From Hyphomonadaceae bacterium (GTDB lineage: Bacteria; Pseudomonadota; Alphaproteobacteria; Caulobacterales; Hyphomonadaceae), in the NCBI GenBank assembly GCA_028285145.1, contig JANQQC010000045.1, positions 1 through 64,000 on the forward strand: 64,000 nucleotides of DNA, read 5' to 3'. The stretch's first letter is position 1, and each line of letters opens with the position of its first letter. Below the pieces are notes generated by a model, which ran no database searches, was not told where the DNA came from, and saw nothing but the letters and a program-made list of their open reading frames with translations. Of this stretch, positions 37,490 through 40,213 are shown piece by piece. The position numbers were made by a program, and so were the translations under genes.

Positions 37490-38080
37490 TTAAAGAACGT
37501 CTTTTTTGCTTGAGACGATTTTTCCGACCAGACCGTACTCAACAGCTTCTTCAGCAGACATCCAGAAGTCGCGGTCGGTGTCCTGCTTGATCTTCTCAAG
37601 CGGCTGACCGGTCGCATCAGCGAAAATCTTGTTCAAACGCTCGCGCATCTTGATGATTTCGCGGGCCTGGATTTCGACGTCAGTGGCCTGTCCGCCGACG
37701 CCGCCACGGGGTTCGTGAAGCAGGAAGCGGGTGTTTGGCAGTGCGTAGCGGTTTTCCTTCGTCGCGGCCGAGTAGATCAGCGCACCCGCACTGGCGACCC
37801 AGCCCGTGCCGAGCACTTTTACCGGGGCTTCGACGAATTTGATCATGTCATGGATCATGTCGCCGGACTCAACGTGCCCGCCGGGGGAGGAGAGCACCAG
37901 GAGGATGGGCTCCTGACTTTCAGACGCGAGGGCCAGCAGCCGCTCGCACACACGGCGGGCCTGTTTGTCGTCAATGCCACCGGTGAGGAGAATGGTCCTT
38001 GCATTGAAGAGGGCTTCTTCAAGAAAGGCGTTGGGCTCGCCAATTGGCCGTTCGTTGGATTCTTCGTCGAGGCGGGTCAT
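37490..38080 (-). CDS. clpP: ClpP-family serine protease, paralog-type
   Basis: The 196-residue protein keeps the ClpP triad: Ser in GWVASAGALIYSA, His in RFLLHEPRGGVGG and Asp in KQDTDRDFWMSAEEAVEYGLV. GWVASAG differs from the GQAASMGA of the main housekeeping ClpP. The gene stands alone, without clpX or tig, suggesting a second ClpP. SSPGGHVESG and MIHDMI are also family features. The ATG at 38080 follows GGAG. The start of the longer frame (38110) has no ribosome site. Confidence 0.9.
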   Translation of the reverse strand: MTRLDEESNERPIGEPNAFLEEALFNARTILLTGGIDDKQARRVCERLLALASESQEPILLVLSSPGGHVESGDMIHDMIKFVEAPVKVLGTGWVASAGALIYSAATKENRYALPNTRFLLHEPRGGVGGQATDVEIQAREIIKMRERLNKIFADATGQPLEKIKQDTDRDFWMSAEEAVEYGLVGKIVSSKKDVL

Positions 38081-38176
38081 GCAGGCTCCGGAATGAAACG
38101 TTGACGGCATAGGTGAGGCGCGCAGCGCGTCTGGTCAATGGGTGACCAGCCATAGGCTGTGAAAGAAACCGGCTGA

Positions 38177-38848
38177 CTATGCGCCGAGGATGCGCTGGAC
38201 CAGTCCCATTGCGCCGGTAAAGCGCAGGCCGCCATCACGGACCGCAAGCGCAAAGCATGGTGATCCGGGGTCGGCTACAGGTTGGTGGGTGTCTTCCGGG
38301 CCCTTCAGCGCGACATCGCCGGGCCCGAACGAGCCAGTCTCGTCGGTAAAGCCGCCGGCCGCAATCAAGGTTGCCTCGTATCCCTCATGGGTGTGGCGCG
38401 GTACGGCTGCACCTGGTTCGATCCGGTAAAGCTCGACTTCCGCATCGCTCGCGCAGTCCAACCGCAGGCGGCGAATGCCGGGAGAGGTGAATTGCCAACC
38501 CGTTGAGCCGGCCGCATCCAGCGCCTTCGCGCGAAGCGGTTCGGGCAGAGTAAGGATTTCATCAAGCGCCTTGCCTGCCATCCGTGCGGCACTGTCCTCG
38601 GTTGCGCGGGTCACTTCGAGATCGTCAATCACGGCTAAAGCCCGATCGGCCGCGCCGTCGGCCATCTCTGCCTTGTCTTCGCGCTCTAGTAGAACGCCCG
38701 CGATCACTTCGGACTGGCGCACCGTCTCCGCAATGTCCGCGCGGAGCGCGCTTTGGGTCTCCACAAGCAATGCGAATGCCGGATCGAGACATCCGGCCGC
38801 GTAGGCGCTGTAGAGTTCGCTGAAGGTGGGAGGTCTGTTACTCGACAT
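38177..38848 (-). CDS. ChrR-like cupin anti-sigma factor lacking zinc-finger ligands
   Basis: ChrR proteins hold an ECF sigma factor inactive until singlet oxygen or peroxide is met. The N-terminal LYSAYAAGCLDPAFALLVET matches the anti-sigma domain. Where ChrR has His, His, Cys and Cys this protein has Pro, Gln, Arg and Ile (TQSALRADIA), so the structural zinc site appears lost. The C-terminal cupin keeps VPRHTHEGYEATL, GPGDV and DTHQPV, its metal ligands. It lies 92 bases after the sigma gene. The start is uncertain; GTG 38893 and ATG 38869 are also in frame. Confidence 0.85.
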   Translation of the reverse strand: MSSNRPPTFSELYSAYAAGCLDPAFALLVETQSALRADIAETVRQSEVIAGVLLEREDKAEMADGAADRALAVIDDLEVTRATEDSAARMAGKALDEILTLPEPLRAKALDAAGSTGWQFTSPGIRRLRLDCASDAEVELYRIEPGAAVPRHTHEGYEATLIAAGGFTDETGSFGPGDVALKGPEDTHQPVADPGSPCFALAVRDGGLRFTGAMGLVQRILGA

Positions 38849-38940
38849 GTCTTGATCTTGGAATTTCATTTGTAATTCAGCGATATTGAGCACTCGGCGT
38901 CTTGGTCAAGTCATTGCAGCTCTGGATTGCACAGGGGAGG

Positions 38941-39522
38941 TTAAGACTCAGCTTCCAACTGGCCTCTCAGGCGATTGAAGGCGAGCCGGATCCGAGATTT
39001 TACCGTTCCCAGCGGCAGGTTAAATGCCTTTGCAATCTCAGTGTGCGATAGGCCGTCATAGAAGGCCGCCTGCAGCAGGATGAGTTGCTCTTCTGGGAGG
39101 GTTGCGAGCTCGCGGCGCACGATTTCCTCATGCTGGAGGCGGTTCAGGCCGTCATCGGGCTGCTCGGCCGGGGCTGGCTGCAGCATTGGCTCATCGGGCT
39201 CCAAAGCGGGTTTGTTGTTGCGACGATGCGCATCAATCCGGCGGTTTCGTGCAATGCGGAAAATCCAGGTGGAAACGGAAGCCTTCGAGCGGTCATACTG
39301 GTCGGCCTTGCGCCAGACCGTGACCATGACTTCCTGCGCCAGTTCTTCGGCTTCCTGATCGTCGGCCCCGAGCCGGCGCATATAGCTCTTCAGCCGCGGA
39401 GCGAAGAACTCGAACAGTTCAGTGAACGCATCCCGGCATTGACGTGACGCAATCCGCCCGACACACGCCGCGAAGTGTTCGCGCTGCTCGCGCTCAATGT
39501 CTAGATTGGTCGTTTGGGTCAC
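38941..39522 (-). CDS. ECF sigma factor, RpoE/ChrR (ECF11) type
   Basis: The 193-residue sigma factor has region 2 (FTELFEFFAPRLKSYMRRLG, AEELAQEVMVTVWRKADQYD, STWIFRIARNRRIDAHRR) and region 4 (LATLPEEQLILLQAAFYDGL, HTEIAKAFNLPLGTVKSRIR). The ADDQEAEELAQEVM and DGLSHTEIA segments fit the ChrR-controlled group. The GTG start at 39522 follows a GTGGG stretch. The next gene is its ChrR-like partner. Two inverted repeats lie upstream. It probably drives an oxidative-stress regulon. Confidence 0.92.
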   Translation of the reverse strand: MTQTTNLDIEREQREHFAACVGRIASRQCRDAFTELFEFFAPRLKSYMRRLGADDQEAEELAQEVMVTVWRKADQYDRSKASVSTWIFRIARNRRIDAHRRNNKPALEPDEPMLQPAPAEQPDDGLNRLQHEEIVRRELATLPEEQLILLQAAFYDGLSHTEIAKAFNLPLGTVKSRIRLAFNRLRGQLEAES

Positions 39523-39532
39523 GAACCCACTC

Positions 39533-39554
39533 TTTTATGGCCGCGACCATAAAA
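39533..39554. promoter_or_regulatory. Perfect inverted repeat 10 bases before the ECF sigma start
   Basis: TTTTATGG (39533-39540) and CCATAAAA (39547-39554) are perfectly symmetrical around a six-base CCGCGA. In the sigma mRNA this would be a small hairpin just upstream of the ribosome site; as DNA it could be an operator. A related CCATTTATG follows at about 39558. Function is inference. Confidence 0.5.
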
Positions 39555-39602
39555 CGCCATTTATGAACCTTAAGCAACTCTGACGTTGGTCAATTCTCAG
39601 TT

Positions 39603-39621
39603 ACACACGTTTATCGTGTGT
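39603..39621. promoter_or_regulatory. Perfect inverted repeat in sigma/IalB divergent region
   Basis: ACACACG (39603-39609) and CGTGTGT (39615-39621) are perfect arms around TTTAT. The site lies 80 bases from both divergent start codons (sigma at 39522, IalB at 39698), a natural place for a shared operator. The 175-base region holds no gene. Confidence 0.45.
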
Positions 39622-39697
39622 GACAAAATTCGGCCTTAACCGCCCCTCAGGATTTGAGGTGCAGAGACATTTCACCAAGTAGAGGACTGCTCTTCGG

Positions 39698-40213
39698 ATG
39701 GCGATCAGACGACTGAAACTCAGCAAGGCAGGCCTCCTGGGTCTGATGTCGGCAATGCTGGCGGGAGCCGCAACAGCAGCGCCGTCCGCAATTGGGCGGT
39801 TCAATGACTGGACCGTTTATGAGGACACTGTGGGCGGTACGCGGATCTGCTTTGCGGCCACCGAAGCGACTGATAAGGCTCCGAAGTCTGCTTCCCATGG
39901 CGATGTATGGTTTTACGTCACCAACTGGGCGGACGGCGCAGCCCGCGGCCAACCCAGCCTGAAGGTGGGCTACGAGCTACGCGCTGACCTGCCGGCAAAG
40001 GCACGGATCGGGCGCTCGGTCTGGCCGATGTTTAATAATCAAAACGAGGCTTTCGCGGAGGATGAGGATGATCCGCGTATCGTTAGAGCCCTGAAGCGCG
40101 GGTCTGAGCTGCGTGTCGAGGCGGTCTCCGCGCGCAATACTGCGGTCGCTTATCACTTCTCTCTGAAGGGCTCCTCCAAGGCGATTGACCGCGCCGCAGC
40201 GGCCTGCCGCTGA
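39698..40213 (+). CDS. Invasion-associated locus B (IalB) family protein
   Basis: The 171-residue exported protein has a signal peptide ending AGAATAA (cleavage at about residue 28). The mature part has IGRFNDWTVYEDTVGGTRIC, CFAATEATDKAPKSASHGDV, FYVTNWADGAARGQPSLKVGY and a C-terminal FSLKGSSKAIDRAAAAC. These match periplasmic IalB-like proteins, common in alphaproteobacteria and not evidence of pathogenicity. It is divergent from the ECF sigma gene. Confidence 0.88.
   Translation: MAIRRLKLSKAGLLGLMSAMLAGAATAAPSAIGRFNDWTVYEDTVGGTRICFAATEATDKAPKSASHGDVWFYVTNWADGAARGQPSLKVGYELRADLPAKARIGRSVWPMFNNQNEAFAEDEDDPRIVRALKRGSELRVEAVSARNTAVAYHFSLKGSSKAIDRAAAACR

Follow-up and report, generated by a model that had tools for sequence, protein, structure and literature searches.

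Does an anti-sigma factor of the ChrR family still hold its sigma factor when it carries none of the four zinc ligands of its anti-sigma domain, and where would a signal then enter? This question is raised by a gene pair in the window, a 64,000-nucleotide stretch of DNA from a member of the Hyphomonadaceae, whose named relatives include Hyphomonas, Henriciella and Ponticaulis. In ChrR the zinc ligands of the anti-sigma domain are H6, H31, C35 and C38. ChrR without its cupin still inhibits and the response is lost, and the cupin ligands E147 and H177 are needed for that response (PMC6852236). What exactly the zinc of the anti-sigma domain does in the sensing of singlet oxygen is described as unknown (PMC6852236). 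The locus contains the following features.

38941-39522, minus strand: ECF11-type sigma factor, 193 aa, GTG start (Pfam Sigma70_r2/r4)
38177-38848, minus strand: ChrR-family anti-sigma factor, 223 aa, ATG start, without the anti-sigma-domain zinc ligands (TIGR02451, Cupin_7, 2z2s/2q1z by sequence and fold)
39523-39697, no strand: intergenic region upstream of the sigma gene, without the usual autoregulatory rpoE-chrR ECF11 promoter (PWM, pattern search)
39698-40213, plus strand: IalB-like gene, a conserved divergent neighbor (Pfam IalB)

The sigma gene comes first and is separated from the anti-sigma gene by 92 nucleotides. The best PDB relative of the sigma factor is R. sphaeroides SigE (2q1z_A, E 5e-41), and its promoter-contacting segments are near-identical to those of SigE. 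The anti-sigma protein scores 133 bits against the TIGR02451 ChrR model, above the curated cut-off of 124.5, and its closest solved relatives are the R. sphaeroides ChrR structures 2z2s and 2q1z. The IalB-like gene occupies the same place in most loci of the window's clade, in SAR116 loci and in several loci whose ChrR keeps all four ligands (HHCC), and an rlmN neighbor likewise recurs throughout the clade and in SAR116 loci. These shared neighbors indicate that the locus is orthologous to the canonical rpoE-chrR locus. A ClpP-like protease gene (37490-38110, minus strand) lies 67 nucleotides downstream of the anti-sigma gene. The proteolytic removal of ChrR made a functional link between the two appealing; the link was rejected when no other fetched locus had a ClpP-like neighbor.

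Alignment with ChrR locates the former zinc ligands and the metal ligands of the cupin.

38828-38830, minus strand: P7 in place of the zinc ligand H6 of ChrR (alignment; place not conserved in the clade)
38753-38755, minus strand: Q32 in place of the zinc ligand H31 of ChrR (alignment; Q in 86% of the clade)
38741-38743, minus strand: R36 in place of the zinc ligand C35 of ChrR (alignment; R or K in 95% of the clade)
38732-38734, minus strand: I39 in place of the zinc ligand C38 of ChrR (alignment; V or I in 95% of the clade)
38387-38395, minus strand: cupin metal ligands H152 and H154 (HxH), corresponding to ChrR H141 and H143 (invariant in alignment A3)
38375-38377, minus strand: cupin metal ligand E158, corresponding to ChrR E147 (invariant in alignment A3)
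38285-38287, minus strand: cupin metal ligand H188, corresponding to ChrR H177 (invariant in alignment A3)

The preliminary description had reported an anti-sigma factor that lacks all four zinc ligands, keeps a cupin with its HxH motif and adjoins a sigma gene, and the alignment and the pair of ORFs bear out each of these observations; the C-terminal ChrR cupin (Cupin_7) has its full set of H, H, E and H ligands. The clade percentages are weighted and cover orthologues from dozens of genomes, and because these orthologues share the same substitutions the loss of the ligands is not attributable to chance or error. The anti-sigma domain (residues 1-90) contains no His and a single Cys (C20), which is missing from many members of the clade, and so has no other HHCC-type site. 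In place of the ligand set that defines ZAS proteins, Hx3Cx2C with an upstream His, the protein reads P/Q/R/I, and judged by its sequence it should not be named a zinc-binding anti-sigma (ZAS) protein.

Two simple explanations had been raised beforehand, and neither fits. The first was a frameshift or wrong start that hides the ligands. The preliminary version of the ORF starts at an upstream GTG (38893) and the ATG version begins at 38848; the upstream in-frame extension, PRRRVLNIAELQMKFQDQD, contains no His and no Cys, and the substitutions are shared by orthologues. The second was another, zinc-binding ChrR that is the true partner of the sigma factor. Apart from the window's anti-sigma gene, the genome has a single ChrR-like gene; it too is zinc-less, is shortened and has no sigma gene beside it. 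A search of the genome, which is 99.9% complete, for zf-HC2 anti-sigma factors gave none above the cut-off of that family.

The anti-sigma domain is predicted to keep its fold.

38603-38821, minus strand: anti-sigma domain with four predicted helices, residues 10-82 (AF2)

AF2 placed helices at residues 10-17, 23-35, 37-56 and 66-82/89 (pLDDT of the block 71-95), and all four were obtained both with a mixed alignment and with an alignment of zinc-less sequences only. The best Foldseek matches of the predicted fold were the ChrR chains of 2q1z and 2z2s (E 1e-14 to 2q1z), and the predicted structure contains helices I-III and helix IV of the class I anti-sigma domain (ASDI). The median dN/dS of the domain among close relatives is 0.077. 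The zinc-free anti-sigma domain is under strong purifying selection.

In an alignment of 257 sequences, the window protein falls in a clade that comprises 81 sequences of Hyphomonadaceae and their close relatives (support 98), none of which is HHCC; whether such a zinc-free clade exists had been asked in the preliminary description. Judging from these proteins, the zinc-less state is an old, family-wide property of the clade. The preliminary description had implied a single odd protein, and here the wider sample corrects it, as zinc-less ChrRs are common in alphaproteobacteria and zinc-less class I domains have already been described (PMC7406223). An even alphaproteobacterial sample of 123 intact ChrR proteins contained 88 with HHCC and 35 that lack one Cys or more, and 18 lacked all four ligands; the HHEH set of the cupin was kept in all 123. 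A sigma gene adjoins 92 of the 101 ChrRs with none of the four ligands. Two further HHCC proteins (L248 and L249) have lost their cupin metal ligands with HHCC intact, so a statement that the cupin is never lost is not quite correct. The cupin metal site is almost never lost, unlike the zinc site of the anti-sigma domain.

A tree of the pair (sigma plus anti-sigma, with the ligand columns removed) needs ten changes of the zinc site, and well-supported branches force at least five of these. The AU test rejected one clade uniting the zinc-less sequences (p-AU 1e-112). These trees come from quick or FastTree searches and contain some long branches. The zinc-site losses are polyphyletic, with several independent events. 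The sister group of the window's clade in this tree is HHCC (L206, L207 and L233, support 99), which makes loss a simpler reading than gain, although the tree by itself cannot separate the two.

Other variants of the zinc site lie beyond the window's clade. Of the sister proteins L227 and L235, one has a partial site reading RHCA and the other the set QQRI, close to the PQRI of the window, and they possibly represent either an intermediate or a convergent replacement. A separate SAR116-type zinc-less lineage (L130, L132-L138, L140 and L146) has H, N and S at the H31, C35 and C38 places; it lacks the operon ECF11 promoter and has the same IalB-rlmN neighbors as the window's clade.

The ECF11 promoter model derived from HHCC loci, GTGATCC-N16-GCGTA, matches the published consensus TGATCC-N16-CGTA (PMC5507510). 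In the intergenic region upstream of the window's sigma gene (39523-39697) the PWM score is -5.9 compared with a 99% null of 7.2, and TGATCC-N16-CGTA is absent even with up to two mismatches. The promoter stands upstream of the sigma gene at 78 of 93 loci with a zinc site and at 17 of the 24 zinc-less loci that are scattered elsewhere, compared with 1 of 68 loci in the window's clade, 0 of 7 loci of near relatives, of which three are HHCC, and 0 of 10 in SAR116. We considered zinc loss as the cause of the lost operon autoregulation and rejected it, since the HHCC sisters L206, L207 and L233 also lack the promoter and zinc-less loci elsewhere keep it. A search for a new shared promoter motif upstream of the sigma gene in the window's clade found none. 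With the promoter lost at its own operon, the clade departs from the model system in some of its control.

The regulon itself appears to be retained. A pattern search of the window's genome for TGATCY-N16-CGTA gave 10 sites compared with 2 in a reversed control, and family-wide counts in 41 genomes were 328 versus 25. The five best-placed sites precede genes for a photolyase, an orphan ChrR (chrR2), IspA, a fasciclin protein and RpoH. The sigma factor of the window is the only close ECF11-type sigma in its genome, the next best paralogue having 26-29% identity. The regulon thus probably belongs to this sigma factor, the sole ECF11-like one found, with its conserved DNA-contact segments.

Downstream of one ECF11 motif the photolyase gene is followed by genes for an amine oxidase, a DUF1365 protein and cyclopropane synthase (cfa). 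In this core cluster of the singlet-oxygen regulon (L268:1-7418) these four genes occupy one strand, and the other carries a photolyase-related gene, a DUF6134 gene and chrR2.

L003:1471-2019 (L268:6870-7418), contig C9 of the window genome, minus strand: orphan zinc-less ChrR paralogue chrR2 (P0003), 182 aa, no adjoining sigma gene

The orphan is headed by TGATCC-N16-CGTA and followed by the DUF6134 and photolyase-related genes, and at least 12 related genomes show this promoter-headed arrangement too. By score, 12 of 13 P0003 orthologues have the promoter; in the thirteenth (L262) the spacer is one base shorter. Most of the other zinc-less orphan ChrRs carry an ECF11 promoter as well. In aligned proteins of the P0003 type the helix IV segment is shortened or missing.

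We consider it likely that the protein of the window is a working zinc-independent anti-sigma factor of the ECF11 type, that its cupin is the signal input, and that the sigma factor then drives the canonical ECF11 regulon. The anti-sigma domain would fold and hold the sigma factor with presumably no zinc in it, the former zinc site being repacked with a fixed Gln-Arg-Val/Ile set. By analogy with the zinc-free RseA and RskA, protein contacts alone may hold the sigma factor. The release signal, perhaps singlet oxygen or an organic peroxide as in related systems, would enter through the metal-binding cupin, and the freed sigma factor would turn on the photolyase, amine oxidase, DUF1365, cyclopropane synthase, rpoH and fasciclin genes. 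The preliminary description had offered either zinc-independent capture of the sigma factor or sensing through the cupin only. The evidence favors both, and these were never exclusive alternatives.

Since R. sphaeroides ChrR needs its zinc for inhibition (PMC7406223), a replacement for the zinc must be assumed here. The same requirement could instead mean that the anti-sigma domain no longer binds sigma, the protein serving as a sensor or enzyme through its cupin only, with the sigma factor free or held by other means; the orphan paralogue, also zinc-less, has visibly lost its helix IV segment. We think this unlikely, as the window protein is predicted to have all four helices with helix IV retained, strong purifying selection extends across its whole anti-sigma domain, adjacency to the sigma gene is conserved, the replacement residues are fixed and the genome contains no alternative ZAS.

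Sensing may alternatively have stayed in a zinc-independent anti-sigma domain, for example if this domain is oxidized directly or proteolysis is set off elsewhere, and the cupin would then have a structural role only. ChrR of R. sphaeroides undergoes proteolysis in response to singlet oxygen, and the part played in this by the zinc of its anti-sigma domain has not been settled (PMC6852236). A domain with no His and one non-conserved Cys offers few oxidant-reactive side chains, and the cupin ligands are near-invariant and required for the ChrR response (PMC6852236), which makes such a sensor quite improbable. The same scarcity of His and Cys, together with fixed Q, R and V/I residues that make an implausible metal site, leaves very little room for another metal or cofactor bound by other residues of this domain.

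Building on a zinc-independent anti-sigma factor with the cupin as its input, we tentatively propose a rewired ECF11 circuit in the Hyphomonadaceae and relatives, a reading about which we are more doubtful than confident. In this circuit a zinc-free ChrR1 would hold the sigma factor, the pair would not be activated by its own sigma, the promoter would instead stand at an orphan zinc-less ChrR2 near the core regulon, and the metal chemistry of the cupin would be the sole sensor. If true, this would amount to negative or modulatory feedback without positive autoregulation. The wiring, with the operon promoter lost and an orphan, truncated, zinc-less ChrR headed by one, is more unusual than the loss of zinc.

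The zinc motif is absent from about 44% of class I anti-sigma domains and about 28% of the soluble ones (PMC7406223), so zinc-free domains of this kind are already known. We found no paper describing zinc-less ChrRs as such, or a promoter at an orphan ChrR, in a search that covered few subscription journals. The zinc-less ChrRs represent natural experiments in which the zinc site was removed several times while the sigma partner, the regulon promoters and nearly always the cupin site were kept. These natural losses point to a dispensable structural role of the first zinc and a central role of the cupin, both of which are open to direct testing in bacteria.

The window pair shares with R. sphaeroides SigE-ChrR (2q1z, 2z2s) its two-domain architecture, fold match, adjoining sigma gene, cupin ligands, promoter motif and core regulon (photolyase, cfa and rpoH). 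It differs in lacking the four zinc ligands and the ECF11 promoter at the sigma-chrR operon, and in its 92-nucleotide gap where most HHCC pairs overlap by 4 nucleotides. RseA of E. coli and RskA of M. tuberculosis are membrane proteins, whereas the window protein is predicted to be soluble, with a metal-binding cupin. Like the window protein, RseA and RskA have a zinc-free anti-sigma helical bundle (PMC6852236, PMC7406223). Sigma binding by B. subtilis RsiW is zinc-independent (PMC7406223), yet RsiW keeps the zinc motif that the window protein has lost. The rpoE2-chrR2 pair of Azospirillum brasilense, reported as constitutively expressed in the title of a paper cited in PMC5507510, is comparable with the non-autoregulated operon described here.
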